Virus record (IMG/VR): IMGVR_UViG_3300033148_009015
Span: 1-58,747 of that record
Direction: 5' to 3' (one strand)
Source of the DNA: a virus
DNA: 58,747 nucleotides
Shown: piece after piece, positions 4,053 through 55,197 of the stretch
Position numbering within the stretch: position 1 is the stretch's first letter
How the letters are laid out: each line of letters starts with the position of its first letter
The notes under the pieces: generated by a model
What the model saw: the letters and a program-made list of their open reading frames with translations, nothing else
What the model was told of the DNA's origin: nothing
Databases searched by the model: none
Made by a program: the position numbers and the translations under genes

Positions 4053-4169
4053 CGTCCTGTCCCTCGCATTGAGAGTGCCTGCATGGCGAGACAAGCCCGG
4101 CCGGGCGCCAACGCAGCGCCCGACCGAACCCAGGAAAGGAATGGGGAGGATGATGCTGTCTCGTGCCTG

Positions 4170-4762: not shown

Positions 4763-4763
4763 C

Positions 4764-5018
4764 TCAGTTCTCCGGTTCGCTGTCGTCGCGGATGACCGTG
4801 ACTATGAGCTTCCGCCGGCGGTCGTACACCAGGCGGAGCTCGTCCACGCGGAAAATCGATACGCGACGCGACGGCCGCTCGATGAACTCGGCGAGCCCGG
4901 CCTGTATCGCCCGGACGAGCTCGTCATGCCGCTGAGGCGTGAGCGTCTCGCCCACCCTCTGTCGGAAGCGGCGTCTCGCGTGCCGCCTGACTCTATCGAC
5001 CTTGCGCAGTCTCGGCAT
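4764..5018 (-). CDS. Hypothetical basic protein (84 aa)
   Basis: An Arg-rich N-terminal third is followed by a segment with the pattern VSIFRVDELRLVYDRRRKLIVTVI, two strands resembling the C-terminal sheet of RelE/ParE-like or related small folds. No active-site set is visible, so no toxin function is assigned. ATG 5018 has SD GGAG spaced 7. It overlaps the upstream nuclease gene by 26 bases. Confidence 0.5.
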   Translation of the reverse strand: MPRLRKVDRVRRHARRRFRQRVGETLTPQRHDELVRAIQAGLAEFIERPSRRVSIFRVDELRLVYDRRRKLIVTVIRDDSEPEN

Positions 5019-11262: not shown

Positions 11263-11276
11263 CGTGTGCTCCTTTC

Positions 11277-16754: not shown

Positions 16755-17345
16755 ATGAGCGCTGAAGCCGGAACAAATAGAGTCTTGCCACAGGACCTCG
16801 ATGTCCAGTGGATGCCCATCGGCAAGGTGAAGCCCTACCCCAGGAACCCGCGCGCGAATGACGCGGCCGTGGACAGTGTCGCACGCAGCATAAGCGAATT
16901 CGGTTGGCGGCAGCCCATCGTCGTTGACCGCGACATGGTCGTCGTCGCAGGACATACGCGGCTGAAGGCGGCGAAGAAGCTCCGCCTGAAGGTTGTGCCG
17001 GTCCACGTGGCGGCGAATCTCACGCCCGAACAAGCAAGGGCGTATCGCCTGATGGATAATCGCTCACATGACTTTTCGGGCTGGGACATGCCTGTTCTCC
17101 AGGAGGAACTGGCGGAGCTGGAGCTTGCCGGCTACGACCTCTCACTTACGGGCTGGTCACAATTGGAAGTTGCCTCCGCCGAACTTGCGGGCGTCCAGGA
17201 CGAGGACGCCGAGCCGCCAGAGCTGCCGGACTATATCAGTTTCGTCGTGACGCCGGAAGAACGCCGGGAAATCGAGGACGCCCTGGCTCAGCAACGCGGC
17301 GCGAATCCAACGGAGCGATTGCTATGGCTGATAAGGAGCAGATAG
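16755..17345 (+). CDS. ParB/Srx-fold nuclease-like DNA-binding protein (196 aa)
   Basis: Residues 20-90 match the ParB N-terminal domain: KVKPYPRNPR, SISEFGWRQPIVVD, and the GHxR-like box VVAGHTRLKAA (63-73). The C-terminal half lacks a methyltransferase and is acidic. ParB-like proteins of phages often precede terminase and DNA methyltransferases. It could bind the 32-bp repeats just upstream or act in DNA modification. Only GGGG spaced 5 precedes the ATG, consistent with a near-leaderless transcript. It overlaps the next gene by 22 bases. Confidence 0.75.
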   Translation: MSAEAGTNRVLPQDLDVQWMPIGKVKPYPRNPRANDAAVDSVARSISEFGWRQPIVVDRDMVVVAGHTRLKAAKKLRLKVVPVHVAANLTPEQARAYRLMDNRSHDFSGWDMPVLQEELAELELAGYDLSLTGWSQLEVASAELAGVQDEDAEPPELPDYISFVVTPEERREIEDALAQQRGANPTERLLWLIRSR

Positions 17346-17780: not shown

Positions 17781-19190
17781 GTGGCAAAAACAACTACAAA
17801 ATCGAAACTGAAACCGAAAATGCAACCAGCGGCGCCCGCCCCGACAATCCACTGCAACTACGACGAGCTGCTGCCGGTCAAGGACTTCAGGCCGCATCCA
17901 GCGAACCCCGCCAGGCACCCCGAGCACCAGGTGGAGTTGCTGGCAAAGATAATCGCCGCCCACGGCATCCGGCACCCGATAACCGTGAGCAAGCGGTCGG
18001 GCTTTGTCGTTAGCGGCCACTGCCGGCTGCTGGCCGCCAAAGAGCTTGGCCTCGAGCGCTTCCCGGCCGACATGCAGGACTTCGCCAGCGAGGCCGAGGA
18101 GCTGGCCGTCCTCGTGGCCGACAACCAGGTGGCGGAGCTGGCCGAGACCGACGGGCAAATAATGGCCGACGTGCTCGTCGAACTCGACCAGGCGAACTAT
18201 CCGCTGGAGCTGACGGCGCTAACAGAAGAAGAGATTGTCGATTATATCGAAGGTCCTATTGACGACATGGCGGGCCTGACCGACCCCGATGCGGTGCCGG
18301 AGCCTCCCGACGAGGCCGTCACGCAGCCGGGCGACCTGTGGTCGCTCGGCAACCATCGCCTCCTCTGCGGCGATTCCGGCAAGGCCGAGGACGTGGACCG
18401 GCTGCTCGACGGGGCGACCGTGCAGCTGGTGAACACCGACCCGCCGTACAACGTCGGCGTCGCCCCCCGTAGCGGCAACGCCATCGCAGCCTCGGGCGAC
18501 CGTCCCGTCGGCCAGCAGGGCATTGACATCGCCATCCGGGGCAAGAAGCCCATACATGGGACGAAATACGCTCAGACAAAGAAGCTCCGCCCTAAGGACC
18601 GGCCGCTCGTCAACGACTCCGTCTCGGACGAGGAGTTCGCGCGGCTCCTGCGGGCGTGGTTTAGGAACATCCAGGGCGTGCTCGAACCCGGGCGGTCGTT
18701 CTACATCTGGGGCGGTCACTCGAATGTGTGCAATTATCCGGCTGTCCTCAAAGAATGTGGACTCTACTTCTCGCAGACAATAGTCTGGGTCAAGGAACAT
18801 CCGGGTCTCGCGGGCAAGGACTTCCTCGCGAATCACGAGTGGTGCTTCTATGGTTGGAGGGAGGGCGCAGCCCACTGGTTCAACGCGGAGATTACCAGCG
18901 CGACTGATGTTTGGAGTGTCAAGAAGGTCCCGCCGCAATCAAAGGTGCATTTGACCGAGAAGCCCGTGGAACTGGCGGTGCGTGCCATGACCTACAGCAG
19001 CAAGCCGGGGGAGAACGTGCTGGACCTGTTCGGCGGCTCGGGCAGCACTCTCATCGCGGCCGAGAAGATGGGCCGCCGGGCGTTCCTCATGGAAATCGAC
19101 CCGCTCTACTGCGACGTCATCGTCAAAAGGTGGGAGGAGTTTACGGGAAGGAAGGCCGAGAGGACATCGGCCGCATTTGATGGCGAGTGA
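17781..19190 (+). CDS. ParB-domain fused to N4/N6 DNA methyltransferase (469 aa)
   Basis: Residues 30-120 form a ParB domain (VKDFRPHPANPARH; VVSGHCRLLAAKEL at 76-89). After a linker, residues 185-460 form an amino-methyltransferase with DPPY (220-223) first and FGGSGSTL later, the beta-class order. It methylates adenine N6 or cytosine N4. The ParB part may read a nearby site or bind nucleotide. It probably protects phage DNA from host restriction. Translation starts at GTG 17781 with no clear SD, so coupling to the GNAT gene four bases upstream is likely. Confidence 0.85.
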   Translation: MAKTTTKSKLKPKMQPAAPAPTIHCNYDELLPVKDFRPHPANPARHPEHQVELLAKIIAAHGIRHPITVSKRSGFVVSGHCRLLAAKELGLERFPADMQDFASEAEELAVLVADNQVAELAETDGQIMADVLVELDQANYPLELTALTEEEIVDYIEGPIDDMAGLTDPDAVPEPPDEAVTQPGDLWSLGNHRLLCGDSGKAEDVDRLLDGATVQLVNTDPPYNVGVAPRSGNAIAASGDRPVGQQGIDIAIRGKKPIHGTKYAQTKKLRPKDRPLVNDSVSDEEFARLLRAWFRNIQGVLEPGRSFYIWGGHSNVCNYPAVLKECGLYFSQTIVWVKEHPGLAGKDFLANHEWCFYGWREGAAHWFNAEITSATDVWSVKKVPPQSKVHLTEKPVELAVRAMTYSSKPGENVLDLFGGSGSTLIAAEKMGRRAFLMEIDPLYCDVIVKRWEEFTGRKAERTSAAFDGE

Positions 19191-26426: not shown

Positions 26427-27512
26427 ATGCGTTCAACCGACGAAAATGCCAGCATAGCTTTCGGCCTTCAGCAGATGGCCGGCGGCTCTTCGATAGCGGA
26501 CCGTCTCTTGTCCGCGAACATGGACGTCGGCGTCCTGCGGCCGTGGTACGACCCGCAGACGCGCCGGTCGTACTGGACGCGGCGCGACGCCAGCGGACGA
26601 CAGCAGACGGTTGTGTGCAACGCGAACACCGTCCTCACCAAGGAAGCCTGGATGCAGCTGGATACGGCCATTATGAAGGCCGCGCTGCAGCGCCTCCGCG
26701 TCGTCCAGGACCTCCGCAACGCGGGCCTGAGCTTCAACCTGCCGAACGGACTCGGTACGACCGTGCTCGAGTACCAGCGGATGAGCGACATCAACGACGC
26801 GACCGTCAGCATGGACGGCCTGCGGTTCGGCGCCGCGGACCGGCCGGAGTTCGACCTCCAATACCTGCCGCTGCCGATAGTACATAAGGACTTCACGTTC
26901 AGCGCCCGGCAGATTCAGGCGTCGCGCAACGGCATGGCGCCGCTGGACACGACGATGGGCGAGCAGGCCGCCCGCAAGGTCGCCGAGATGGTCGAGAAGC
27001 TCACGCTCGGCGTGGCCTCGACGTACTCGTTCGGCGGTGGGACCGTGTACGGCATGGCGAACTTCACCAACCGGCTCACCCGGACGCTCACCGACCCGAC
27101 ATCCAGCGGCTGGACGGCCGCCACGACCCTCGACGAGGTGCTGGCGATGAAGCAGCAGAGCCAGGACGCCTACCACTTCGGGCCGTGGATGCTGTACGTC
27201 GCCACCGCCTGGGACCGCTACATCGACAACGACATGAGCAGCTCGTACCCGAACAAGACGCTGCGAATGCGGCTGCGGGAAATCGACGGAATCCAGGACG
27301 TCCGCACGGCGGACTTCTTGAGCGACTACGACATGGTTCTCGTCGAGCTCAACCCGGAGGTCATCCGCATCGTCATCGGGCTGGACATCACTACGGTTCA
27401 GTGGGACAGTGAGGGCGGCCTGCGGAAGAACTTCAAGGTCATGACCATTATGGTCCCGCAGGTGCGGGCCGACATCAACGATAACACCGGCATCGTGCAC
27501 GGCAGCGTGTAG
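26427..27512 (+). CDS. Major capsid protein (361 aa)
   Basis: Position after protease, scaffold and decoration protein, length and composition fit the HK97-fold major capsid protein. It has the family features LSFNLPNGLGTTVLEYQRMSD (E-loop region) and the C-terminal DITTVQWDSEGG...MVPQV. It assembles the icosahedral shell. ATG 26427 follows GAAAGGAAATCACAA, a strong SD. No N-terminal delta-like region is evident, in agreement with a separate scaffold. Confidence 0.85.
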   Translation: MRSTDENASIAFGLQQMAGGSSIADRLLSANMDVGVLRPWYDPQTRRSYWTRRDASGRQQTVVCNANTVLTKEAWMQLDTAIMKAALQRLRVVQDLRNAGLSFNLPNGLGTTVLEYQRMSDINDATVSMDGLRFGAADRPEFDLQYLPLPIVHKDFTFSARQIQASRNGMAPLDTTMGEQAARKVAEMVEKLTLGVASTYSFGGGTVYGMANFTNRLTRTLTDPTSSGWTAATTLDEVLAMKQQSQDAYHFGPWMLYVATAWDRYIDNDMSSSYPNKTLRMRLREIDGIQDVRTADFLSDYDMVLVELNPEVIRIVIGLDITTVQWDSEGGLRKNFKVMTIMVPQVRADINDNTGIVHGSV

Positions 27513-28006: not shown

Positions 28007-28684
28007 ATGCCCCGGTGGGAACCGAAGCCGATTTGGGCCGGCCGCGACTGCTTCATCGTCGGCGGCGGGCCGTCTCTGCGGGGATTCGACTTCTCTCTGC
28101 TGCGCGCCGAGCGGGCGATAGGCTGCAACAACGCCTTCCGGCTCGGACCGGAGGTCTGCGACTACTGCGTGTTCGTGGACCGCAAGTTCATCATCGGCCC
28201 CGACGGCAAGCCCCGCAGCGGCTTCTACGACGGGCTGGCCGAGTTCGGCAATCCGGTCATAACGTCGGAGCCACGCCTGCGCGACCGGCCGGAGAGATGG
28301 CTCTACTGGTATCCGCGCAAGGCGCAGGGTCTGCACCGGGACGCGCTGGGCTACAACTACAATTGCGGCGCGACCACCATAAACGCCGCGCTGCTGTTGG
28401 GAGCGACCACGGTCTACCTGCTCGGCTTCGACATGCACCTAGGCGACAGGGGCGAGCCGAACTGGCATTCGCATCTTATCGACAGGCCGAGCCCGAACGT
28501 GTACTTCCGCATGCTGGCGGCGTTCGCACACGTCAAGCGCGACCTGGCGGAGAAGTTCCCCGGCTGCCGCGTCGTCAACGTCAACGACGATTCGGCGCTG
28601 AAGTGCTTCCCGACGGTCGGAACCGCGCAGTTCTGGGCCGAGCGGGCGCGCGGGAGAAAGGAGGCGGCCGCCTGTGGCAGTTAG
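28007..28684 (+). CDS. DUF115/GT42-like Rossmann-fold protein (225 aa)
   Basis: The N-terminal motif FIVGGGPSLRGFDFSLL (16-32) and the central GATTINAALLLGATTVYLLGFDMHLG are shared by DUF115 (MptE/Maf-like) and GT42 sialyltransferase-like proteins, which bind a nucleotide-sugar or pterin. The gene is inserted between head genes, while a paralog lies in the late cassette (45660-46259). It may modify a sugar or structural protein. ATG 28007 follows the previous stop within 2 bases. Function is inferred. Confidence 0.6.
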   Translation: MPRWEPKPIWAGRDCFIVGGGPSLRGFDFSLLRAERAIGCNNAFRLGPEVCDYCVFVDRKFIIGPDGKPRSGFYDGLAEFGNPVITSEPRLRDRPERWLYWYPRKAQGLHRDALGYNYNCGATTINAALLLGATTVYLLGFDMHLGDRGEPNWHSHLIDRPSPNVYFRMLAAFAHVKRDLAEKFPGCRVVNVNDDSALKCFPTVGTAQFWAERARGRKEAAACGS

Positions 28685-41381: not shown

Positions 41382-41780
41382 ATGGTGGACTACAGCGACC
41401 TGATGGACAAGCCGTTCCGGCTGGGCGCCCGGGGCCCGGACGCCTACGACTGCTGGGGCCTGTGCCTCGAGGTGGGCAGGCGCGCAGGCATCGAGTACCC
41501 GGCGGTCTTCACGCCGCCGAGCACGGCCGAGCAGAGCGCCGCCATCGCAAGGACCAGGGACGCCGAGTTCGAGCCAATCGAGCGCCCGGAGCCCTGGTGC
41601 ATAGCGGCGTTCTATGCGACGCCGCCATTCGTGGACCACTGCGGCATCGTGCTGCCGGACAGGCGCCGGTTCCTGCACATCACGGCGGGCGGGCGCGTGC
41701 GGCGCAGCCGCCTCGACTCGCAGTGGGCGACGCAGCGGCTCGCCGGCTTCTATCGGCTACGGGGGGACGCATGCAGATAG
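41382..41780 (+). CDS. gpK-like NlpC/P60 tail peptidase (132 aa)
   Basis: The catalytic Cys lies in AYDCWGLCLEVGRRAG, and the His in VDHCGIVLP. It cuts peptidoglycan stem peptides during DNA entry or helps tail-tip assembly, as in lambda gpK. Start choice is uncertain: a GTG at 41364 is possible, but ATG 41382 leaves the conserved region intact. It lacks the N-terminal Mov34/JAB domain of lambda gpK, so only the C-terminal half is present. Confidence 0.8.
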   Translation: MVDYSDLMDKPFRLGARGPDAYDCWGLCLEVGRRAGIEYPAVFTPPSTAEQSAAIARTRDAEFEPIERPEPWCIAAFYATPPFVDHCGIVLPDRRRFLHITAGGRVRRSRLDSQWATQRLAGFYRLRGDACR

Positions 41781-44700
41781 TGACCGTGGCCAACCCGTTC
41801 GAGCGCCGCGTCCGCGACGTGCGGACCGTGCAATACAAGGGCCAATCGCTCCTCGAGCTGCTGGACGAGCACTTCGCCCAGGTCGAGGAGCAGGCCGGCC
41901 TACACTTGCCGCGCGAGGGACTGTACGAGAGGATAGCATTGAGCGTGAACGGGCTCGTCGTCCCCCGCGCGTTCTGGGCGTCCACGCGCCCGCGCGAGGG
42001 CGACTGCGTCGTCATCATGCCGGTCGTCGGCAAAAAGAGCGAGACCAAGCAAATCCTGAACGCCGTGGCGATGATAGCCGCGATGGTCGTCGTCGGCCCG
42101 GCGGCGCCCGGCATGATAGAGGCGTTCGGCCGCATCGGCGCGTTCGTCCTCGGCACGGCGGCGGTCGTGGGCACCGGCGTGCTGCTCCAGTCGCTCACGC
42201 CCAGCCCGAAGCTCCGCAGCGCCGAGCCGGACTGGGACGCCTCGCCGACATACGGCTGGAGCCCGGCCACGGCGCAGCGCCAGGGTCTTGCCATTCCGCG
42301 CTTCTACGGGCGCAACAAGCTCTACGGCAACGTCGTGGCCGTGCACACCGAGGTGGACGGCTCGGACGACACGAAGCAGCGGCTCAAGATGCTCGTGGCC
42401 CTCGGCGAGGGGCCGGTCGAGGGCGTCGTCGCCGGCAGCATCAAGATAAACGGCCAGCCGGCGGCGAACTTCTCCGACGTTACGACCGAGGAGCGGCGCG
42501 GCACGCTGAACCAGACGGCGGTCTCGTTCTTCGACGAGACCAAGCCGGAGTACCGCCCGAACCGCGTCGTCACGAACACCGGCGGCTCCGTGACATATAC
42601 GACGCCCGATGATGACTTCGACGACCTGGAGATAGAGCTGGGCTTCACGCGCGGCCTGTACTATGCCAACGACCAGGGCGGCCTCTCGTCGCATTCGGTC
42701 GGCGTCAAGATAGAGCTCAGCGTGCACGAAGCCGACAGCTGGAGCACGCTGGTCGAGACGACCATCTCGGACGCTACCAACGCGCCGAAGCGGGCCAGCT
42801 ACCGCACAGGCACGTCGTATCCGGGCGGGAGCTCGCCGACCGTCACGCGGGGCAGCAAGTACGACATCCGCATCACGAAGACGACCAGCGACCAGAGCAG
42901 CGCCCGGTACGCCGACGAGCTGCGGCTGCTGGCCGTGCGCGAGGTGCTGGACGACGACTTCGCATATCCCGGCATCGCCCTGCTGGGCGTCTCGGCGCTT
43001 GCGACCGACCAGCTGTCCGGCTCGGTTACCGTCTCGTGCGTGCAGGACGGCCGCATCGTCAACACCTACGACGGCTCATCCTGGACGCTCCAGCACAGCG
43101 ATAACCCGGCCTGGGTTCTCTGGGACATCCTGACCCGGCCGGTCATCAGCGGCGACGGCAGCACCGGCTCGCCCTACGCAATCGAGCGGTACGACGGCAT
43201 ACCCCCCTCGCGGCTCGACTCGGCGGCGTTCTACGAGCTCGCCCAGTTCTGCGACCAGCTCGTGGACAACGGCAAGGGCGGCACGGAGAAGCGAATCACC
43301 TTCAATGGCGGCTGGGACGCCGGGACGACCGTGTGGCGCGCCGCGATGGACGTTTGCGCCGTCGCCCGCTGCTCGCTCGTCTGGAACGGGGCGAACCTCA
43401 CGGTCGCCATCGACAAGGCCGACACACCGGCCCAGATGTTCACCGTGGCCGACATAATCCAGGACTCCTACCGGCAGATGTATATGCCGCAATCGGAGCT
43501 CGCCTCCGAGATAGAGGTGCACTACAGGGACGCCGACCAGGACTACGAGCGGATCCCCTTCTCCGTCGTGGAGCCCGCCATCCCCTCGACAGCCTCCCGC
43601 ATCACGCTCGACCTGGTCGGCGTCACCAAGCAGTCCGAGGCGTGGCGCGCCGCCATGCACCGACTGGCGAAGAACCGCTACCTCAAGAGCACCGTCCAGA
43701 TAGACGCCGACATCGACGCAATCGCGTGCACCGTCGGCGACGTGGTGTACCTCCAGCACGACGTGCCCGAATGGGGCCAGGCGGCGCGCGTCGCCTCGGC
43801 GCCGGACGCAATGACCATCATCGCCGACAAGGACCTGACCTACGAGCCCGGCCAGAGCTATGAGGTCATGCTCCGCAAGCAGGACGGCGCGCTCAACCAG
43901 CGTAGCGTATCGAATCTCTACAGCGAGATAACCGGCGTGGATACGTCGGCCAGGACGTTCAGCATCGCCGGCGACTACTCGGCGCACTACAGGGACGGCG
44001 ACTCGATTCGCGTTGCGAACAGCACCGGCAACGACGGCACCTACACGGTGAGCGGCAACGCCACCGCCGCAACCGGCGAGACGGTCATAACGGTCGTCGA
44101 GGACATACCCGACTCGACGGCGGACGGCGGGCTGTTCAACCAGCGCCGTGTGGTGGTGACATTGCCCTTCACAGACGCCGACGGGCTCGCCGAGGCCGCC
44201 GCCGAGGACGACATGTTCTATTTCGGGCGGCAGAATATCGACCTCAAGAAGTACCGCGTGCTGCACCTGGCCCGCAGCAGCGAGCAGCGCGTCTCGCTGA
44301 CGCTCATCGAGTACAATGAGAACGTATACGGGCCGGACGGCCAGACGCCGACGATTCCCGTGGCGGACTACAGCCCGCCCGACTCGGACCTGACGGTGCT
44401 CGGCAGGCCCCGGAGCTTCGGCGAGCTGCGCGACCTGGTGCCGTTCAGCACCGTCGCCGGGCCGAAGATAGACGTGCCCCTGACGACGAACCTCGCCTGG
44501 TCCGGCTCGACGGCCGGCTCGGTCTACTGGAGTGCCGCCGACGGGACCAACCCGATTCTATTGCGCTACAAGGGTACGACGTACGAAATCACGCCCGGCA
44601 ACACGGCGAATGCCTACGTCTACTGGGACCTGGCCAGCCCGACGGCGTTCCAGAGCACGAACTCGCTGTCGTCCATCGACGCCAGTGCCGACCAGTGGAT

Positions 44701-45406
44701 TGTGTGCTACAACGACGGCGGGACCCCGAAGATCACAGCCCCGTTCCCGGTCATTAGCGGCGGCATCATCGAGGCCAATACCATCCTGGCCTCGCACATC
44801 AACGTCGCGTCGCTGTCGGCCATCTCGGCGGCGCTCGGGACGATAACCAGCGGCTCGATAACGCTGAGCCTCGGCGGCGATACGCGCCTGCGGCTCGACA
44901 GCAACGGACTGTACGTGAGCGACGACGCCGGGAGCAACTGGACCGAGGTCATCAAGAACGAAAGCGGCAGTGTAAAGATGTTCGCCGACGTGCTCAAAGC
45001 CGGCGAAATAGTCACCGAGAAGCTCGCGGACCTGGGAGTGACCACCGGCAAATTGGCCAATAATGCAGCCACATATACCGCCACATACTGGGCTTCTGGG
45101 TCAACGTCGCTGGGAACAGGCTATTCAACGATAGCGTCGGCAACTATTAGTGCAACCAACAAAACAGTTTTCATCCATGTCTCGTGTCGCATAACTACGG
45201 CTGCTGCGAGCATTCAGCTTTCCGGCGGTGGGTTGGGCACAGTGGAATGGCAAATGATTTCTGCAGGCCAGTTTTCGGCGGTAATTGGCGATACATCGCC
45301 TGGTTCGGGGAATGTAACGTACTACCTGAAGGCTATGCGGGCTAATCCGACGTTTGCGTGTGAGGCGGAGCGGCGTGCGATGTTGATTACTGAGTTTCGC
45401 AAATAA
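41771..45406 (+). CDS. gpJ-like central tail fibre / host specificity protein (1211 aa)
   Basis: Residues 1-120 resemble gpI/gpJ start elements (hydrophobic AVAMIAAMVVVGPAA). The central part follows the gpJ plan (TYGWSPATAQRQGLAIPRFYG, then LALGEGPVEGVV; AWVLWDILTR and ITFNGGWDAGTTVWRAAMDVC). The C-terminal 400 residues are beta-rich receptor-binding fibre. It is close in length to lambda gpJ (1132 aa). No separate gpI gene is present, and the first 120 residues may replace it. ATG 41771 follows GGGGGGACGC. The last 110 residues are AT-richer than the rest, like a transferred receptor-binding tip. Confidence 0.85.
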   Translation: MQIVTVANPFERRVRDVRTVQYKGQSLLELLDEHFAQVEEQAGLHLPREGLYERIALSVNGLVVPRAFWASTRPREGDCVVIMPVVGKKSETKQILNAVAMIAAMVVVGPAAPGMIEAFGRIGAFVLGTAAVVGTGVLLQSLTPSPKLRSAEPDWDASPTYGWSPATAQRQGLAIPRFYGRNKLYGNVVAVHTEVDGSDDTKQRLKMLVALGEGPVEGVVAGSIKINGQPAANFSDVTTEERRGTLNQTAVSFFDETKPEYRPNRVVTNTGGSVTYTTPDDDFDDLEIELGFTRGLYYANDQGGLSSHSVGVKIELSVHEADSWSTLVETTISDATNAPKRASYRTGTSYPGGSSPTVTRGSKYDIRITKTTSDQSSARYADELRLLAVREVLDDDFAYPGIALLGVSALATDQLSGSVTVSCVQDGRIVNTYDGSSWTLQHSDNPAWVLWDILTRPVISGDGSTGSPYAIERYDGIPPSRLDSAAFYELAQFCDQLVDNGKGGTEKRITFNGGWDAGTTVWRAAMDVCAVARCSLVWNGANLTVAIDKADTPAQMFTVADIIQDSYRQMYMPQSELASEIEVHYRDADQDYERIPFSVVEPAIPSTASRITLDLVGVTKQSEAWRAAMHRLAKNRYLKSTVQIDADIDAIACTVGDVVYLQHDVPEWGQAARVASAPDAMTIIADKDLTYEPGQSYEVMLRKQDGALNQRSVSNLYSEITGVDTSARTFSIAGDYSAHYRDGDSIRVANSTGNDGTYTVSGNATAATGETVITVVEDIPDSTADGGLFNQRRVVVTLPFTDADGLAEAAAEDDMFYFGRQNIDLKKYRVLHLARSSEQRVSLTLIEYNENVYGPDGQTPTIPVADYSPPDSDLTVLGRPRSFGELRDLVPFSTVAGPKIDVPLTTNLAWSGSTAGSVYWSAADGTNPILLRYKGTTYEITPGNTANAYVYWDLASPTAFQSTNSLSSIDASADQWIVCYNDGGTPKITAPFPVISGGIIEANTILASHINVASLSAISAALGTITSGSITLSLGGDTRLRLDSNGLYVSDDAGSNWTEVIKNESGSVKMFADVLKAGEIVTEKLADLGVTTGKLANNAATYTATYWASGSTSLGTGYSTIASATISATNKTVFIHVSCRITTAAASIQLSGGGLGTVEWQMISAGQFSAVIGDTSPGSGNVTYYLKAMRANPTFACEAERRAMLITEFRK

Positions 45407-45415: not shown

Positions 45416-45676
45416 ATGATGGACACGAGAATGCGCATCATAGCCGCGCTGGCGCTGGCCCTTGCGGCCACGTTGGCGGCGATTGCCCTGAACCGAGGTG
45501 GTGGGGCGCCCGCTGCCGCCGAGCGGCGCTACGCGCTGGTGCGCGACGCCGACGGTTCAGCTGTCGTCGTGGACCTCCAAAGTGCCACGAGCCGGGTGGT
45601 GCGTCGGCAGTATTCGGACAAGCCGCTGGTGCTCGCCGAAGACCAGTGGAGCGCAGGCCATGGCTGGAGCAGATAA
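45416..45676 (+). CDS. Small membrane or secreted protein (86 aa)
   Basis: The N-terminal 25 residues form a hydrophobic Ala/Leu segment (MRIIAALALALAATLAAIA) like a signal or anchor, followed by a small soluble domain. It is first in the late cassette, overlapping the next gene by 17 bases. SD before ATG 45416 is weak. Function unknown. Confidence 0.5.
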   Translation: MMDTRMRIIAALALALAATLAAIALNRGGGAPAAAERRYALVRDADGSAVVVDLQSATSRVVRRQYSDKPLVLAEDQWSAGHGWSR

Positions 45677-46259
45677 GGAAATCTACGTCGTCGGCTGCGG
45701 GCCGTCGCTGAGGGACTTCGACTGGCGGGTTCTCGCCGGCAGGACCACGATTGCTGTCAACGGCGCCTTGCGCGACGTGCCCGGGCCGAGCTTCTTCATT
45801 ACCGGCGACAGTGGCTTCGCGGTCTCGGCCGCACAGAACGACTTCTGGGGCGTTGAGACGCGCAAGGTGCTCGTCATGCGCGAGGACCACCGCTATTGGC
45901 CGCGCGTCCGGCCGTACGCGCCCAAGTACGACCATCGAATCAGGCCGGCGCGGTTCGACGGCGAAATCGGACTGAGCGAGGCGGACTTCGCCACCGGGCG
46001 CAACAGCGGCTTCTGCGGAATGCAGTACGCCGCCATTCTCGGCGCGCGCGTGATACATCTGTTGGGCATGGACTTCGCCGACGGAGGCAGCCCGTCGCTC
46101 AACTATCACGGCCGTTACCGCTCCAACGGCTCGCGCTGGATCGAGTTCTTCGACAACTTCATCGTCGGCATTCATCGGCTCCAGCGCTGCGGCGTCCGCG
46201 TCGTCAACCACAGCCCGATAAGCAGGCTCAACGAAATCCTGGAGTGCGAGGAAATCTAA
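45660..46259 (+). CDS. DUF115/GT42-like protein, paralog of 28007-28684 (199 aa)
   Basis: The motif VVGCGPSLRDFDWRVLAGRTTIAVNGAL (9-36) and the central GFCGMQYAAILGARVIHLLGMDFADGG follow the same plan as the gene at 28007. This family includes sialyltransferase-like and pterin kinase-like enzymes, so a nucleotide-sugar role is plausible in this context. ATG 45660 follows GGAG spaced 8. Confidence 0.6.
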   Translation: MAGADKEIYVVGCGPSLRDFDWRVLAGRTTIAVNGALRDVPGPSFFITGDSGFAVSAAQNDFWGVETRKVLVMREDHRYWPRVRPYAPKYDHRIRPARFDGEIGLSEADFATGRNSGFCGMQYAAILGARVIHLLGMDFADGGSPSLNYHGRYRSNGSRWIEFFDNFIVGIHRLQRCGVRVVNHSPISRLNEILECEEI

Positions 46260-46865
46260 ATGGCGACGATGCCGATGATAGTGTCGCACTACACCATCGG
46301 GACCGGCTATGAGCAGGAGGTGCGCAACCTGCGCGAGTCGCTGCTCGCGCTGGGACTGGACCACGATATAGAGCCGGTCGCCTCGCTCGGCTCGTGGCGA
46401 GCCAACAGCAACTACTGCGCCGCCCAAGTGCGGAAAATGCTGGACAAATGGTCGCCGCGGCCCGTGCTCCGCGTGGATGCCGACGCGGTGTTCCGCAGCA
46501 GGCCGGACATCTTCGTCTCGCCCGGCTTCGACGGCGTGGACGTTGCCGCGTGCATCTGGGACAACTCGCGCCTGCGGCCGGCCGGGGAGCTGCTCGGCGG
46601 CACGCTGTACTTCGCCAATAGCCCCGCCGCCCGCCGACTCGTGGCCGAGTGGGTAGCCGAGTGCGCACGGAAGCCCACGCGGCGCAACGGCGACCTGCTC
46701 CAGGACATCCTCGGAAGGCACAAGGACGACATCGTCTTCAGGCGGCTGCCGCTCGCCTACTGCAAGATATTCGACCGCATGCCCGGCGACATCGTGCCCG
46801 TCATAGAGCACTTTCAGGCGTCGCGGCGCTTCAAGCGGCAGGTGAACGCAGGGGGAGGCCGCTGA
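46260..46865 (+). CDS. Predicted GT-A glycosyltransferase (201 aa)
   Basis: A small GT-A type domain: an N-terminal strand (PMIVSHYTIGTGYEQEV), a DxD-type RVDADAVFRSRPDIF, and GGTLYFANSPAARRLVAEW in the acceptor half. It probably transfers a sugar from a nucleotide donor. Starts immediately after the previous stop. The donor and acceptor cannot be read from sequence. Confidence 0.65.
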   Translation: MATMPMIVSHYTIGTGYEQEVRNLRESLLALGLDHDIEPVASLGSWRANSNYCAAQVRKMLDKWSPRPVLRVDADAVFRSRPDIFVSPGFDGVDVAACIWDNSRLRPAGELLGGTLYFANSPAARRLVAEWVAECARKPTRRNGDLLQDILGRHKDDIVFRRLPLAYCKIFDRMPGDIVPVIEHFQASRRFKRQVNAGGGR

Positions 46866-47665
46866 TGCATTGGACGTTCATGGCATATCACCGCGCCGAC
46901 GATAACATGCTGGAGACCTGCGTGCACAGCCTGCGCCGCGCGAACGGCCGGGCCGGCATCGTCATAGCCACGGACGGCGTGCCCGAGGGCGTCGAACGCA
47001 GCCTCGCGGAGGAGTGCGGCGTCCGCTGGGTGCACGTGCCCGCCGAGCAGATGCATAGGCGCCGCGCCACGTGCAAGATAGAGGCGCTGCGCGCCTTCGT
47101 CGCCGGGCTGCCGGATGGCGACATCGTCCTGGTCTCGGACGTGGACGTGTACTTCCGGGGCGACCCGTTCGTGCCCGCCTCGTCGAGCCCGGAGATGCAT
47201 CTGGCCGTGACGACGCGCGGATACGACTACCCGTTCCCCATCAATGGCGGGGTCTTCTATCTGAGGCTCGTCCCGCCGACCCGCGCCTGGCTGGACTGGC
47301 ACCTCCAGGAAATCTACCGGCCGGCCTGGCCGCCCTACGTCCAGCACCGCAAGCGGTTCAACCACGAGCGGTACGGCCTGGACTGGTCGGTCGGCCAGGA
47401 CTTTCTGGTGGTTACGTGGCAGCGGCGCGAGGAGCTCCTGAAGGAGCGGGGGCTGCGGGTCGTGGACTTCGGGCCGCGATATAACTACTGCCCGCCTACG
47501 GACGTGCACGGCCCCGCTGCCTTCGATATGGTCTGGGCCGCGCTCGAGGACGGCAGCGACGTAGTCGTCGTGCACCTCAAATCCGGCCTGAAGAAGATGA
47601 TTTACGACAGCCGGTTCCCGCACGCGATAATCCGGCATCCGAAAGGGAGGCTCTCATGGCTTTGA
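46865..47665 (+). CDS. Predicted GT-A glycosyltransferase with DxD (266 aa)
   Basis: VLVSDVDVYFRGDPF supplies the DxD metal motif, and NGGVFYLRLVPPTRAWLDWHLQEI the acceptor-side region typical of GT8/GT77-like enzymes. Next to two other glycosyltransferases and overlapping them by a few bases, it is part of a multi-step glycan assembly. ATG 46865 follows GGGGGAGGCCGCTG, SD spaced about 7. Confidence 0.7.
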   Translation: MHWTFMAYHRADDNMLETCVHSLRRANGRAGIVIATDGVPEGVERSLAEECGVRWVHVPAEQMHRRRATCKIEALRAFVAGLPDGDIVLVSDVDVYFRGDPFVPASSSPEMHLAVTTRGYDYPFPINGGVFYLRLVPPTRAWLDWHLQEIYRPAWPPYVQHRKRFNHERYGLDWSVGQDFLVVTWQRREELLKERGLRVVDFGPRYNYCPPTDVHGPAAFDMVWAALEDGSDVVVVHLKSGLKKMIYDSRFPHAIIRHPKGRLSWL

Positions 47666-48396
47666 AGCGAGCCGTCATCGTCGCCAGCTTCGGCGACAGG
47701 GACCGGCAAATACACGAGACCATAACGAACCTCATGGAGTACTGCGACCTGCCCATCCACCTGGTCACGGACCGCACGAGACAAGCGCCCCGGGACCGGG
47801 TCGTCCAGCGGGTGCTCCAGCCCGGCGAGCTGCGCTGGCGCGAGCACCGGCGCTGGGGGGTGCGCAACGCCAACATCTGGCTGGCCCGCGCAGCGCTCGA
47901 GGCGACGGACTATTCCTCGGTAATGTGCCTGAACGACGACATGCGCATAGTGCACCACGGCTTCCTGGACGGCTTCGCGCTCGCCGAGAAGTTCGGCGTC
48001 TGCGTGCCGTCCAACCCGCGAATCTATGTCCGTTATAACGCCATGGGCGCGGACGCCACGGACGCCGACCTGGAGCGGGCGATGCGGACCGCGCCATACG
48101 CGCCGGCCTGCAACGTGAGCCCGCTATTCGCGTCGCAGCTGCCGGCAGCCAGGACGCTGCTGCAAGCCTATCTGGACGAGCTGGAGACCTGTATGCGCGG
48201 GACCCTGGCGATATGGTTCGCCTCGTGGAGAACGGGCATTACGCCCGTGTACCTGCCGGAGTTCTGGTGCGTCTGCGAGGGCAACGCCAGGCACATCCGC
48301 GACTACCGGAAGAGGCTGCGGGGCAAGACGCACGACATTCCGCCCATGATGCTGCACGTCGGGCAGAAGGGCGTGCGGGAGGTATTCGATGCTTGA
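47656..48396 (+). CDS. Predicted glycosyltransferase (246 aa)
   Basis: The first 30 residues (RAVIVASFGDRDRQIHETITNL) form the first Rossmann strand, and YSSVMCLNDDMRIVHHGFL carries a DD metal motif. FWCVCEGNARHI is Cys-rich near the C-terminus. It fits a GT-A fold enzyme. It overlaps both neighbours. Substrate unknown. Confidence 0.6.
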   Translation: MALKRAVIVASFGDRDRQIHETITNLMEYCDLPIHLVTDRTRQAPRDRVVQRVLQPGELRWREHRRWGVRNANIWLARAALEATDYSSVMCLNDDMRIVHHGFLDGFALAEKFGVCVPSNPRIYVRYNAMGADATDADLERAMRTAPYAPACNVSPLFASQLPAARTLLQAYLDELETCMRGTLAIWFASWRTGITPVYLPEFWCVCEGNARHIRDYRKRLRGKTHDIPPMMLHVGQKGVREVFDA

Positions 48397-49531
48397 CGAG
48401 GCCGAGTTGAGCAGGCGCATCGAGGCCGCCGGCCGCATCCGCCGATGGTATCAGGCGGTGCCCTACGGCGACGTTAAATACGGACATCACTTCGACGACG
48501 GCCGGACGAACCCGCGCTCCTACGGCGACGGCCGTTGGGCGCACTACATTCGACCCGCGATAGCCCGCATAGAGGCGGAGCTCGACCCGCCCCGTTCGGC
48601 GCTCTGCGAGGTCGGCTGCAGCGCCGGGCTGTTCCTGCTGCGGGCCTGGGAGCAGTTCGGGTTCCGCCGGCTCATCGGCGTCGAGGCCGGGCGCGGTGCC
48701 TATGAGCAGCTGCGCATCACCGCGGACTACTACGACGCGATGCCCCTGCGGACGCATCTGAACCGCGTCGGCCGGGCCGAGCCGAACATCGCGGACGACC
48801 GGGTTCCGCCCCTGGACTTGGAGCGCTTCCCTATCGTGGACTTGACCCTGCTGAGCTGCGTGCACTATCACATGCAGGAGCAGGACCTGCGCGAATACCT
48901 CCGCGCCCTGAGTAGAAAGAGCCTGTTCCTGCTCGTCGTCACCGACGAAAACGCCGGCCATGTGACGCGCCCGGACGCGAAATTCGCGGCCGAGCTGGCG
49001 CAGAGCACCGGCCGCTGGCAGCTCGTCGCCGAGGACAAGACGCCCGCCGAGTGGCTGCGACCCCCACAGAAGCCGCCCTGCAAGGACCTCACGGCATTGA
49101 CATTCCGCAGCGCCAAACTGCGGCGCCTGCCGACAGAGGAGTGCTTCGAGCAGCAAATCGCCAACAGCGCCGTGAACAGGCGATTCTATACGAGGGTGTT
49201 CCCCGCGTTCATCGACGGCGTGCTGGCAGGCCGAATCAAGGCCGACGGCCTCAAGGGGACGCAGGTCTACAGGTGCCAAACGTGCGGCGGGGGCCGCTGC
49301 GACATCGGGGCCGAAGACGGGCAGCCGCCCTGCGAGACTACGGCCTGGCCGCCGGATGTTGCAGTGGAGCGGACGATGTCGTATTATCAGATGGTGCACT
49401 CGATGCACGACCACGGCCAAGAGCAGCCGATTAGGCTGCTCACATCCGCCAAGGCGAGCGACCCCTGGGACGGGCACCACCGCGTCGGCGTGGCGCATCA
49501 TCTGGGGCTGCCATACGTGTACGGAGCGTGA
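48389..49531 (+). CDS. SAM-methyltransferase fused to ParB-like domain (380 aa)
   Basis: Residues 70-90 (LCEVGCSAGLFLLRAWEQFG) form the SAM-binding motif I of a class I methyltransferase. The C-terminal 50 residues end in DPWDGHHRVGVAHHLGLPYVYG, a ParB/Srx-type DGHHR box, and a CQTCGGGRC zinc-like motif lies between. The fusion could methylate a sugar or small molecule and use a nucleotide-linked site, or tie this cassette to DNA. It overlaps the previous gene by 8 bases. Confidence 0.6.
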   Translation: MLDEAELSRRIEAAGRIRRWYQAVPYGDVKYGHHFDDGRTNPRSYGDGRWAHYIRPAIARIEAELDPPRSALCEVGCSAGLFLLRAWEQFGFRRLIGVEAGRGAYEQLRITADYYDAMPLRTHLNRVGRAEPNIADDRVPPLDLERFPIVDLTLLSCVHYHMQEQDLREYLRALSRKSLFLLVVTDENAGHVTRPDAKFAAELAQSTGRWQLVAEDKTPAEWLRPPQKPPCKDLTALTFRSAKLRRLPTEECFEQQIANSAVNRRFYTRVFPAFIDGVLAGRIKADGLKGTQVYRCQTCGGGRCDIGAEDGQPPCETTAWPPDVAVERTMSYYQMVHSMHDHGQEQPIRLLTSAKASDPWDGHHRVGVAHHLGLPYVYGA

Positions 49532-49535
49532 AGCG

Positions 49536-50426
49536 ATGTTCGGACCGAACGTAGTCGCCGACGGCACTGGCGCCTGCTACCATCACCGGGAGCCGGCGTT
49601 CCACCGGCTGCTCGATTCGCTCGAGCGCGAGATGGCCGAGAGGTTCGGACTGGACGACTACCGGTTCCTGTTCGTGGCCGGCAGCGGCACGACAGCGAAC
49701 GAGGCGGTCATCCACAGCTGGCGGCACCGGTTCCGATACCTGTTCGCCGACGCCGAGTTCGGGGTCCGGTTGCGGCGCATCGGCGAGGCGCATCCGAGGC
49801 CGGCCGCGCAGCCAAAGGAGCGGTTCGTAGCCTATCCGTACTATGAGACGAGCATCTCCCGCGTGAACCGCTGGACGCAGCCGGACGAGACCGAGGCGTG
49901 CCTCGTCGATATGGTCTCGGCGTTCCCCTACTATCGGCCGCCGGCCGGCACCGCCGTCTGGACGACGGTGAGCTCCAAGCAGCTGGGAGCGTACCCGGTG
50001 GTCGGCATAATCGCGGTGCACAGAGCCGCCGACATCGACGCCTACGTGCACGAGTCGCCGGCGCAGGGCTCGGCCCTGAGCCTGAGCAGCTATCTGCGGT
50101 TTGCCGCCCGGCATGAGACGCCGACCACGCCGCCCATTTTCCTGCTGCGCGACCTGCTCGAGCGCCTACAGCGGCTCGACCCGGCCGAACTGCGGACCAG
50201 GATAGACCAACGACGGCGCATCATCGAGCAGCTCGTGCCGCCCGAGGCCATGGTGGGCGAAGGCCCCGTCGTCACCCTGAAGCCGCTGCCGCCAATCACG
50301 GCAATAGCCGCGGCGTTCCGCCTGTATCGCGGCGCCTATGGCTACCAGATATTCTTGTGGTCCGGCACCGACGCCGATTACGAGATGCTCTACGATTCAT
50401 TGGAGAAATGCCATGCCAAACCTTGA
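49536..50426 (+). CDS. Predicted PLP-dependent aminotransferase-like protein (296 aa)
   Basis: FVAGSGTTANEAVIHS near residues 47-62 is the cofactor phosphate-binding turn of fold-type I enzymes of class V, and TTVSSKQLGAYPVVG (about 145-159) supplies the probable PLP Lys. It is shorter than full aminotransferases (about 360 aa). It may aminate a keto-sugar or bind the cofactor in a sugar pathway. ATG 49536 follows ACGGAGCGTGAAGCG. Confidence 0.6.
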   Translation: MFGPNVVADGTGACYHHREPAFHRLLDSLEREMAERFGLDDYRFLFVAGSGTTANEAVIHSWRHRFRYLFADAEFGVRLRRIGEAHPRPAAQPKERFVAYPYYETSISRVNRWTQPDETEACLVDMVSAFPYYRPPAGTAVWTTVSSKQLGAYPVVGIIAVHRAADIDAYVHESPAQGSALSLSSYLRFAARHETPTTPPIFLLRDLLERLQRLDPAELRTRIDQRRRIIEQLVPPEAMVGEGPVVTLKPLPPITAIAAAFRLYRGAYGYQIFLWSGTDADYEMLYDSLEKCHAKP

Positions 50427-51489
50427 CGACTGGACGCGCGAGGCCGACCAGCCCCGCGTACTCTGCGCGATGGCCAAGGGCGTGAGATGGCGCATCTATG
50501 AGCTCGAGCAGTGCCAGAGGCACCTCGGGCTCACCAGGGACATACCGCCCGAGAGCGTCACCCGGCTCAACGTGAGCCGCCCCGACGCCAGGATAATCTT
50601 CTGGAAGCTGCACACCGAGTCCACGACACCGGCGCAGCTCCAGGTCTGCACGCGGGCGGCCGACCGGCTGCCGCAGGTCCGGCACATAAACGACCCGCGC
50701 GGCTGGATGGCCTGCCACGCCAAGGAGGTCGCCTTCGCCATCTGGCAGCGGCACGACATACCCTGCCCCCAGTGGTTCGAGTTCCGCGACGAGCGGAGCT
50801 TCAATGCGAACCAGTCGTTCGACTTCCCGATGCTGGTGCGCATAAACAACAGCACGGGCGGGCGCTTCTCCTGGCTCGTCCGGTCGTTCGACGAGGTGCG
50901 CGGGCGCCTGCCGGCGCTCAGGCAGGGGATGGCCTACCATCACGACGGCTTTCCGAGCATCGGCGTCGGTCGCAAGATAATCGCCGTGCAGTACGTTCCG
51001 ACCGAGCGGCCGGAGGGCGTGAACCTGAGCTTCCGCATCATCGTCGCCGGCAACCGCGTAGTGACGGGCTACGCCCGCATCGGTCCGGCCCGCGACTGGA
51101 TTGCCATCACGAACAGGTTCGAGCCGTGGATGGAGGAGCCCTTCATCGCATATCAGCGGCTCTGCCAGCAGTTCTGCGAGCAGAACGAGCAGCTCGTCGT
51201 CAAGGCCGTCAAGGTGCTCGGGCTTAACTTTCAGGGTGTTGACGTGATTCTGGACCGGCAGAACCGCCCGTACTTCCTGGAGGTTCAGCCCGGCTTCTCT
51301 GTGGGCTACGCCGACCGCAAGGCGTGGCACCCGCCGTTCTACAACCCGACGCGCCCGGCATCGCTCGTGAAGTTCCTCATCGCGAACCGGGACCGAATCA
51401 AGGCCGAGGCGCCGCTCTACCACGACTACTGGCTTGACAAGCACGCCATGTTCGACCGGGCGTTCCGCGCCCTCGCGGAGGTGCTCTGA
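50413..51489 (+). CDS. ATP-grasp ligase (358 aa)
   Basis: The central part has the ATP-grasp pattern (FPMLVRINNSTGGRFSWLV, then QYVPTERPEGVNLSFRIIVAG), and the metal-binding end GLNFQGVDVILDRQNRPYFLEVQPGF. Such enzymes join a carboxylate to an amine using ATP. Overlap with the aminotransferase gene suggests joint use: the amine formed in one step may be linked to an acid in the next. Confidence 0.75.
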   Translation: MPNLDDWTREADQPRVLCAMAKGVRWRIYELEQCQRHLGLTRDIPPESVTRLNVSRPDARIIFWKLHTESTTPAQLQVCTRAADRLPQVRHINDPRGWMACHAKEVAFAIWQRHDIPCPQWFEFRDERSFNANQSFDFPMLVRINNSTGGRFSWLVRSFDEVRGRLPALRQGMAYHHDGFPSIGVGRKIIAVQYVPTERPEGVNLSFRIIVAGNRVVTGYARIGPARDWIAITNRFEPWMEEPFIAYQRLCQQFCEQNEQLVVKAVKVLGLNFQGVDVILDRQNRPYFLEVQPGFSVGYADRKAWHPPFYNPTRPASLVKFLIANRDRIKAEAPLYHDYWLDKHAMFDRAFRALAEVL

Positions 51490-51490
51490 A

Positions 51491-52009
51491 ATGCCCGCGG
51501 AAGCCCGCTACGTCGGCTGCGACATCGACAGCACCATGTGCGACCACTGGCGCCGGATTCGGCGGCACACGCTGCCGAGTTGGCCGGGCACGTCCATAGC
51601 GCCTACCGCCTGGTCGCGGGACGAGGTGCTCAAAGACAGGTTGCTGCCGTACTGCCTGGGCGTGCTGCGCAGCATCAAGGGCCTCGGCCTGCGAATCCGC
51701 TACGTGACGGCGCGCGGCTGGAAGGACGCCCACGAAGTCACTATCGAGCAGCTGCGTCGCTGGGGCGTGCCGGATGCCGACGACGTGATACTCGTGCCGA
51801 GGCTGGCCGAGAAGGTGGGGCTGCTGGAACCGAGCGTCTATCGCTTCTACATCGACGACTTCACGACCGGGCAGGAGAGCAACATAGGGACGTTCCACGC
51901 CGAGGTCGCCCATGCCATTCAGGCCAAGGGCGTAAGGGTCATGGTCTTCCGCGGCGACTGGCGGGATATCTGGGAGCAAATCCAGCTCTACGAGGCGCGA
52001 GACAGATGA
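51491..52009 (+). CDS. HAD-superfamily phosphatase-like protein (172 aa)
   Basis: GCDIDSTMCDHW (9-20) is motif I (DxDxT), YVTARGWKDA motif II, and YIDDFTTGQ the acidic motif. It removes a phosphate from a small molecule, e.g., a sugar phosphate. ATG 51491 lies one base after the previous stop. Its stop overlaps the last gene of the cassette. Confidence 0.7.
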   Translation: MPAEARYVGCDIDSTMCDHWRRIRRHTLPSWPGTSIAPTAWSRDEVLKDRLLPYCLGVLRSIKGLGLRIRYVTARGWKDAHEVTIEQLRRWGVPDADDVILVPRLAEKVGLLEPSVYRFYIDDFTTGQESNIGTFHAEVAHAIQAKGVRVMVFRGDWRDIWEQIQLYEARDR

Positions 52010-52623
52010 GAGTGCTGATGCTGATGGCACATCCTGACGACGAGACAATCTTCGGCTGGCCGATTCTCCAGAGAGGCGCCGACTATGAGGCTTCCGTCCT
52101 TGTGCTCGCCGACAACTCGGGCAAGCGGGGCGAAGGCCCGATACGCGCGTTGCACGAGGTCTGCCGGCGCAACAACGCATATCTCATCGACCTGCCGCGG
52201 CTGGACAACAACTTCTACCGCCTGCCGCCACGATATGCCGGGTTCTGTCTACCGGACGCCGTGGCAATGTTCCGGGCCAACATCGAGAAGGCGCTGGCGC
52301 TGAGCCGGGCCGAGGCCGTGTTCTCGCATAACTTCGTCGGCGAATACGGCCACGGCGACCATCGCATGGCCTGCGCGCTCGCGTCCGAGCTCGACGTGCC
52401 TATTCTGATGACGGACATTTGCCTGGCCAACCGCTGCCATCTGTCGCGCGATTCCATGCCGCCGTTGCTGCTCCGCCGCATCTACAGGCCGGCCAACATC
52501 ATTGCCGACTGCTCGCTCGACCGGGCCTGGTATGGCGAAATGCGGCGGGTCTACGAGCGGCACAAAGCCTGGTCATGGGGTGGGCACCAGCCGGTGACGA
52601 CCTGCAGGCTCTTCCGTCTCTGA
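52006..52623 (+). CDS. LmbE/PIG-L-type deacetylase (205 aa)
   Basis: The N-terminus AHPDDE (8-13) and the later EYGHGDHRMA are the metal-binding motifs of GlcNAc de-N-acetylases (LmbE, PIG-L, MshB type). It likely removes an acetyl group from an N-acetyl sugar, the first or last step of the pathway. ATGA overlap with the HAD gene. It is the last gene of the rightward operon, ending 7 bases before the convergent nuclease gene. Confidence 0.75.
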   Translation: MRVLMLMAHPDDETIFGWPILQRGADYEASVLVLADNSGKRGEGPIRALHEVCRRNNAYLIDLPRLDNNFYRLPPRYAGFCLPDAVAMFRANIEKALALSRAEAVFSHNFVGEYGHGDHRMACALASELDVPILMTDICLANRCHLSRDSMPPLLLRRIYRPANIIADCSLDRAWYGEMRRVYERHKAWSWGGHQPVTTCRLFRL

Positions 52624-54393: not shown

Positions 54394-55197
54394 TTAATTC
54401 TTGCCTTTGCCTTCATCTTGTTTCGGGTACTCTCTTCTCCTGGCCCACAGAGGCCACTCTTCTGGATTCTTACTCACGCGCCAGTTGACTTCCAACTGCT
54501 TGACGAACACAGGCACATCCCGCTCGTCGGCCTGGTGAATCAGTGATTCGACCCACTCGCCTTTGCAGGGTCGTCGCCCCGGTCCGCTCTCGCAGCCGAT
54601 GATAATCCAATCGAGTGATTGCCATTGCTCCGGCGAAAGCTCGACCGGGCCAAGCAGCGGCTCGAACGAGACGAACCGCACCTGCGCAGGAACCCGTGCC
54701 AGCAGTTTTATCCTCGCGTTGGCCGAGGTTTGGTCCTCGCAAGTGACGCCGAACCATAAGTACCGGGGCAACTCCGCGTCCGGCGGCCCGTCTTCATTCA
54801 TCCATTCGTAGAACTCCAACAGGCGCTTTGGCCGCTTCGTGAGGAACTGGAAGATGCTCCCCGTCCGCCCGGCACACTTGGCCGCTGCATCAAAGACCCT
54901 GGCTATGATTCCGAAGGGAACATTCTCGTGAAAGAGGTCGCCCATCGAGCAGACGAACACGCGCCGCGGCGTCTTCCAGCGCCGAGGGGCGTCCAACTCA
55001 TACACATCCGCGTAGGCGGGCTTGCCGCTCCATCGACCGTCAGGGCCGATTGCGCCCTGGTACTTTTCGAGACCCATCGCCTTGAGCCGCCGGGCGAATC
55101 GCTCGGCGTAGCAGTTATCGCAGCCGGCGCTCACCTTCGAGCACCCGACAACCGGATTCCACACGAAATGAGTCCACTCAATCTTCGTCTTGTTCAT
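54394..55197 (-). CDS. Phage Gp37/Gp68-like protein, DUF5131 (267 aa)
   Basis: The N-terminus KIEWTHFVWNPVVGCSKVSA (5-24) and C19...C26...C29 (GCSK, GCDNCYAER) are the DUF5131 radical-SAM-like cysteine signature. FQFLTKRPKRLL, GCESGPGRRPC and PVFVKQLEV follow the family. The reaction is unknown, although the cluster is expected to bind Fe-S. ATG overlaps the upstream stop (ATGA). Confidence 0.8.
   Translation of the reverse strand: MNKTKIEWTHFVWNPVVGCSKVSAGCDNCYAERFARRLKAMGLEKYQGAIGPDGRWSGKPAYADVYELDAPRRWKTPRRVFVCSMGDLFHENVPFGIIARVFDAAAKCAGRTGSIFQFLTKRPKRLLEFYEWMNEDGPPDAELPRYLWFGVTCEDQTSANARIKLLARVPAQVRFVSFEPLLGPVELSPEQWQSLDWIIIGCESGPGRRPCKGEWVESLIHQADERDVPVFVKQLEVNWRVSKNPEEWPLWARRREYPKQDEGKGKN

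Follow-up and report, generated by a model that had tools for sequence, protein, structure and literature searches.

What would a siphovirus-like phage do with a row of transferases, a methyltransferase, an aminotransferase-like enzyme, a ligase, a phosphatase and a deacetylase encoded directly behind its tail-tip gene? The question is raised by IMG/VR virus record IMGVR_UViG_3300033148_009015, a single record of 58,747 bases that was analysed at its full length and is called the window here. Positions 45416-52623 of the window hold ten co-directional + strand open reading frames (ORFs), g1-g10, which an initial annotation, made from the DNA letters alone, had described as a ten-gene cassette making and attaching an amino-sugar or amide-linked group to virion proteins or to DNA. 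Nine of these genes, g2-g10, recur in the same order in distantly related phages and are likely to constitute a pathway by which the phage assembles a short glycan and decorates it. That the virion is the target and that an amide bond is formed, taken jointly, is a roughly even call.

Conservation of the Cassette

Between about 19.2 and 45.4 kb, the + strand of the window carries terminase, portal, head, tail and gpJ-type genes. As the initial annotation had stated, a run of tightly overlapping same-strand genes follows the gpJ-like gene: all ten ORFs are present, with spacings of -17 to +9 bases, and the genes beyond the stop of g10 at 52623 run on the opposite strand. The features are as follows.

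41771..45406, + strand: gpJ-like central tail fibre/tail-tip gene (J), directly upstream of the cassette; phrog_31, E 2e-140
45416..45676, + strand: g1, 86-residue peptide with one N-terminal hydrophobic stretch and no family match
45660..46259, + strand: g2, GT42/DUF115(MptE)-like transferase
46260..46865, + strand: g3, GT-A-type glycosyltransferase (Nucleotid_trans-like) with invariant D73-A-D75
46865..47665, + strand: g4, GT-A glycosyltransferase with GT8-like fold; SD92-x-D94
47656..48396, + strand: g5, third GT-A-like transferase with divergent NDD/DDD motif
48389..49531, + strand: g6, S-adenosylmethionine (SAM) methyltransferase with a C-terminal DxxDGxHR (ParB/Srx-like motif) domain
49536..50426, + strand: g7, short class-V pyridoxal phosphate (PLP) enzyme, aminotransferase-like; Schiff-base K148, Asp D125
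50413..51489, + strand: g8, RimK-type ATP-grasp amide/peptide ligase
51491..52009, + strand: g9, small HAD phosphatase-like protein; D11, D13, T15, K108, D122-D123
52006..52623, + strand: g10, PIG-L/LmbE-type de-N-acylase; AHPDDE, GEYGHGDH

The GC content at third codon positions is coding-like in g2-g10 (0.83-0.91) and is 0.87 in J; in g1 it is lower, at 0.77.

A DNA-level search for the g10 motif HNxxGEYGHxxH, which matched more than 100 viral loci, and subsequent alignment searches served to locate relatives. At three of these loci, each of the nine genes g2-g10 has an orthologue, with the order unchanged and identities of 42-55%; the three loci represent two IMG/VR lineages, one a 75-kb record (G001; L061, and also L149) and the other a pair of near-identical records (G002/G003; L112/L133). 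The g2 orthologues in L148/L149 are 50-52% identical to g2, and those of g6 are 45-49% identical. In both G001 and G003, a J homologue precedes the cassette and the genes after it are reversed, as in the window. The cassettes of G001-G003 contain one extra methyltransferase (Methyltransf_11) inserted between g5 and g6, and the GC content of these relatives is 41-45%, against 65% in the window. Since the gene order is kept in such distant relatives, chance grouping is ruled out; the search for the same order that the initial annotation had proposed as a check thus found the genes linked rather than scattered, in keeping with a single pathway. The membership of g1 did not survive this comparison. 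Because G001-G003 have no orthologue of it, g1 is dropped from the unit, and it is probably a small membrane peptide outside the pathway. What stands is a nine-gene, co-directional and tightly packed unit spanning 45660-52623 behind the gpJ gene.

Synteny between G001 and the window extends over the late operon, where identities are 44% for TerL, 40% for the portal, 52% for head morphogenesis, 36% for the capsid, 41% for a second GT42-like gene and 43-52% for the cassette. Given that the divergence of the cassette is close to that of the TerL, portal and head genes, these identities indicate that the cassette is old, co-inherited and constrained, having been kept about as well as the structural genes since the common ancestor. 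Beyond these carriers, the examination of 23 J relatives revealed zero cassette genes downstream of J, several of those loci ending soon after J. Scans of viral contigs with single g8 or g7 sequences and of genome contigs with single g8 were too strict and returned no relatives, and in tblastn searches of g2, g4, g6, g7, g8 and g10 against 50,697 phage records, g2 alone was matched. The same kinds of gene are assembled differently in an island at L126:2002-11224, which combines g6-like, PIG-L, two g5-like, g4-like and g3-like genes with a radical-SAM-looking protein and has no ATP-grasp gene.

Enzyme Families of g2-g10

The families initially proposed for g2-g5 and g7-g10 hold, by profile or fold matches and by motifs, and the catalytic motifs of the cassette are intact. 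By itself, g2 matches MptE-like proteins weakly (E 8e-4) and phrog_4603, annotated 'sialyltransferase', more strongly (E 5e-12), while a profile of its seven-member family retrieves the GT42 enzyme CstII from the PDB (E 2e-6). Its GxGxS..D..N motif, together with profile likeness to CstII, MptE and Maf, places it in the GT42/DUF115 group. The tblastn matches of g2 lie in jumbo phages. In Xanthomonas phage XacN1 (ORF375-373; L027:5956-8578), a tandem g2-like pair is followed by a 438-residue protein that appears methyltransferase-like by eye, with large hypothetical proteins downstream.

By sequence, the GT-A matches of g3, g4 and g5 are all weak. Three of four members of the g3 family match Nucleotid_trans, with a best E of 0.001. 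The S-D-x-D motif of g4 is kept in four of five members, the fifth having A-D-x-D. An AlphaFold (AF2) model of g4, with a predicted local distance difference test score (pLDDT) of 83, matches in Foldseek the GT8 enzymes GlyE, LARGE1 and glycogenin and other GT-A proteins at E of about 1e-7, and its matches include the PBCV-1 capsid glycosyltransferase 2p6w; on this predicted fold, g4 is assigned as a GT-A glycosyltransferase. g5 is in turn profile-related to g4 (hhalign probability 85). For g6, proposed as a methyltransferase with a ParB-like end, the first half is borne out by the nucleotide-binding motif EVGCSAG. The second half stays at the level of a motif, as the key residues of DxxDGxHR are invariant in four members and no family model threshold was reached; a PDB sequence search with single g6 returned nothing.

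The class-V assignment of g7 draws on TIGR03301 (E 5e-4) and on profile matches to the aminotransferase 3f0h (E 7e-16), SerC (3e-12) and the nucleotidyl transferase/aminotransferase 6pd1 (5e-11) in the PDB, and K148 and D125 are invariant in 17/17 homologues. g8 matches TIGR00768 at E 1e-10, under that family's own score cut-off, and a PDB sequence search with single g8 found nothing; its AF2 model (pLDDT 85) resembles RimK, ArgX and LysX in Foldseek (best E 3e-14). At the position of the RimK metal/ATP motif 'EVN', g8 reads E-V-Q (E290, Q292), which is invariant in all seven sequences aligned (7/7). The HAD motifs DxDST, T/SAR, K and DD of g9 are likewise conserved in 7/7. For g10, the match to PF02585 (E 6e-8) lies above the Pfam cut-off, and the AHPDDE and downstream HxDH metal motifs are conserved in the alignment.

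Loci for surface polysaccharides typically combine glycosyltransferases, deacetylases, methyltransferases and ligases, and in lambda-type phages the region behind J is a site of morons. The cassette could on these grounds alter the lipopolysaccharide or capsule of the host during infection, thereby blocking the adsorption of competitors. We consider this rather improbable, as family scans of g2-g10 gave no membrane-protein-like, flippase or polymerase candidate, no integrase was found in the window or its relatives, and a late lytic operon is poorly suited to lysogenic conversion.

The g7-g8-g9 Triad in Other Phages

Alignment searches with g8 and g7 yielded further g8-bearing contigs (L150, L151, L152, L153, L170, L171, L189, L191 and L194). 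Including the window, G001 and G002/G003, g8 homologues thus occur in 12 contig lineages, some of which share other neighbours and are therefore not fully independent; L153 is counted together with L154, a contig from a Flavobacteriales metagenome-assembled genome that is itself phage-like. The linkage of the three genes is obligate among them: in 12/12 lineages, a g7 homologue adjoins g8 and a g9 homologue lies within about 1.5 kb. One of the triads, in a phage contig of 21% GC (L194:5734-8148; IMGVR_UViG_3300036940_000315), consists of genes that are all open only when TGA is read as Trp, as in a code 4-like scheme. No g8-type protein was found in the 50,697 phage records (tblastn) or in 394 other Bacteroidota genomes, and a profile search of genome contigs with the g8 alignment matched L154 only. 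The three enzymes recur in many uncultured viruses, whereas no cultured phage among those searched was seen to have them.

The neighbours of the triad, often nucleotide-sugar genes, include glycosyltransferases, GDP-mannose dehydratase and epimerases, joined in G005, G013 and G014 by a truncated UDP-glucose/GDP-mannose dehydrogenase and in L152 by NeuB and a cytidylyltransferase (CTP transferase). In the L152 phage contig, NeuB, the cytidylyltransferase, a UDP-glucose/GDP-mannose dehydrogenase and an MptE-like gene adjoin the triad at 4045-8460, and a phage nonulosonic acid pathway is possible there. Separately, in L170, L171 and L189 a single PLP gene has two distinct ATP-grasp paralogues close by within its island.

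Across phages, g8 and g7 are not bound to one fixed glycosyltransferase set, and natural-product pathways are known to include enzymes of the RimK-type ATP-grasp, PLP and PIG-L families. Both points would suit a pathway for a small molecule or nucleotide derivative, such as an anti-defence metabolite, with a small acceptor for the glycosyltransferase-like proteins. A glycan is the better match to four consecutive transferase-like proteins, to a GT42 paralogue close to the capsid gene and to a nucleotide-sugar neighbourhood, and membership of a defence system was rejected when PADLOC gave no match; we regard a small-molecule product as very unlikely.

Proposed Pathway and a Bacterial Analogy

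For the glycan pathway itself, we infer substrates, reaction order, amide chemistry and a virion target as follows. The GT42/Maf-like g2 and the GT-A enzymes g3-g5 would attach and extend sugars drawn from host nucleotide-sugars, g10 would take the N-acyl group off an amino sugar, and g6 would methylate the product. g7 may act as a transaminase whose product is an amine, probably an aminoalkyl compound bearing a phosphate, which g8 would join to a sugar carboxylate in an ATP-driven amide bond; alternatively, g8 could couple an acid to the amino group that g10 exposes on the sugar. Removal of the phosphate after ligation would fall to g9. As the phage encodes no UDP-glucose dehydrogenase, the host would have to supply the carboxylate sugar. 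The initially proposed sugar with an amide-linked group fits the occurrence of the PLP/ATP-grasp/HAD triad in nucleotide-sugar islands.

The logic of g7-g8-g9 resembles serinol-amide synthesis in Campylobacter. In the HS:2 capsule of C. jejuni, serinol phosphate produced by the PLP transaminase Cj1437 is amide-linked to glucuronate by the ATP-dependent amidoligase Cj1438C, the C-terminal domain of Cj1438, and the HAD enzyme Cj1435 then strips the phosphate (PMC11800397). Judged by family, the triad would have three corresponding activities, and it is likewise linked to a UDP-sugar dehydrogenase and glycosyltransferases, whereas the setting differs, being a virus without a UDP-glucose dehydrogenase rather than a bacterial capsule locus. 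The C. jejuni amidoligase is a TupA-like ATP-grasp protein fused to a GT2 enzyme (PMC11800379). Because the two ligases come from different ATP-grasp branches, the parallel is one of analogy only.

The Probable Target of the Proposed Glycan

Two further features of the late operon bear on the target.

26427..27512, + strand: major capsid-type virion protein; phrog_771, E 7e-26; upstream of the second GT42-like gene
28007..28684, + strand: second GT42/DUF115-like gene, a g2 paralogue; phrog_4603, E 3e-17; blastp to g2, E 6e-7

The g2 paralogue stands beside and downstream of the major capsid gene region, and its 41% identical orthologue in G001 is likewise near the capsid gene. In both lineages, the cassette ends the structural operon behind J. 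For these reasons, a virion target is favoured, and it is favoured also because a Brevundimonas jumbo phage carries its g2 homologue between tail/lectin-like genes and lysis genes. Glycosyltransferases with intact donor-site motifs (the g4 fold, the g2 profile and the DxD of g3 and g4) are thus encoded in or beside the structural operon, and the GT-A fold of g4, with its match to the PBCV-1 capsid enzyme, and the GT42 profile of g2 count in the same direction. The chances are about equal for and against the cassette decorating virion proteins from the same late operon with an amide-bearing glycan.

Several observations weigh against it. No virion protein is known to carry a modification here. 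A target shared by the carriers in the C-terminus of J was tested and found no support, their J C-termini being unrelated. UDP-glucose dehydrogenase is absent from the window and from G001-G003, so that these phages supply no carboxylate sugar, and present in three other triad contigs. g8 is RimK-like and stands alone, in contrast to the fused, TupA-like Campylobacter ligase. Lastly, in several IMG/VR phages, g7 homologues occur without g8 beside FolE, QueD, QueE and QueC.

These preQ0 clusters (L158, L159/L160, L161/L162, L164, L165/L166, L173 and L175) contain g7-type PLP enzymes mostly 32-41% identical to g7 of the window, that of L175 being more distant. In a tree of g7, members from glycan islands and from preQ0 clusters intermingle, which takes at least two changes of context, and specificity of the g7 family for glycan islands was accordingly rejected. 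In L165, a small HAD-like-looking protein without a Pfam hit follows the PLP gene. In both settings, the partner next to the PLP enzyme uses ATP to activate a carboxylate so that an amide can form; on this pattern of neighbours it is reasonable, if speculative, to suppose that g7 supplies the amine in both. An extension of this idea, which we hold to be unlikely, is a virus-specific amide module in which the phospho-amine from g7 would be joined to a carboxylate by whichever ligase is available and then dephosphorylated by a HAD enzyme. The ligase would be g8, acting on a virion sugar, in the glycan islands, and elsewhere a QueC homologue, acting on 7-carboxy-7-deazaguanine to give an undescribed DNA base.

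Such clusters keep alive, as an open reading of the homology, the second of the initially proposed targets, in which an amide-linked or glycosyl group is put on a modified base of the phage genome. Glycosylation of modified DNA by phages has been described (Pyle et al. 2024, as cited in PMC12619734), 7-deazaguanine DNA modification clusters are known from phages (PMC6884629), with g7-type PLP enzymes now seen in such clusters of uncultured phages, and ThyX adjoins the cassette in G001-G003. The window, however, has no thymidylate synthase-like gene (PF00303) or ThyX (PF02511), and the window and G001-G003 have neither QueC (PF06508) nor FolE (PF01227). The 7-deazaguanine clusters, for their part, have no g8 homologue. 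Moreover, the cassette closes the late structural operon, away from replication genes, and the triad elsewhere keeps company with nucleotide-sugar enzymes. Modification of DNA is therefore judged unlikely; a virion target is preferred over it because of the position of the cassette, the second GT42-like gene at the capsid gene and the lack of a base-modification anchor gene.

The proposed virion glycosylation has counterparts in other viruses and in bacteria. Chlorovirus PBCV-1 (A64R structures 2p6w, 2p72 and 2p73) encodes glycosyltransferases for its own capsid, and the g4 model matches 2p6w; PBCV-1 differs in being a eukaryotic algal virus, and the sequence identity to g4 is only about 13%. 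We know of no triad of the g7-g8-g9 kind in PBCV-1. For mycobacteriophages, Freeman et al. (2023), as cited in PMC12619734, are described as reporting phage-encoded glycosyltransferases together with glycans borne by subunits of the capsid and tail tube, which is the kind of activity on capsid and tail proteins envisaged here; that description mentions no PLP/ATP-grasp/HAD/PIG-L set. The sfmABCDE operon of Shewanella oneidensis likewise combines a SAM methyltransferase and an ATP-grasp ligase to decorate Ser residues of a surface filament, Maf (DUF115-type) proteins being the likely transferases (PMC3765264). It differs in that the substrate is a bacterial flagellin, a NeuB-like enzyme is included, class-V PLP and HAD enzymes are lacking, and the ligase belongs to the ATP-grasp_4 subfamily.

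Other Genes in the Window

Three observations concern genes elsewhere in the window. A fusion of ParB with an N6/N4 DNA methyltransferase is encoded at 17820-19190, and a separate ParB-like protein (16812-17345) resembles the N-terminus of this fusion (E 3e-16). In the early region (10054-12263, - strand), a DUF2201 putative metallopeptidase/VWA protein is paired with an AAA ATPase. A DUF5131 (PF07505) protein, matched at E 7e-70, is encoded at 54394-55197 (- strand).

Implications

Phage virion glycosylation is known, and to our knowledge the described cases involve few enzymes. If the proposed function of g2-g10 is correct, some phages would build elaborate, capsule-like decorations on their particles by means of a conserved nine-gene pathway. 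Since the searched records of phage isolates contain no g8, work on isolates would not reveal its ligase family, and the cassette offers new enzymes for making amide-bearing sugars.

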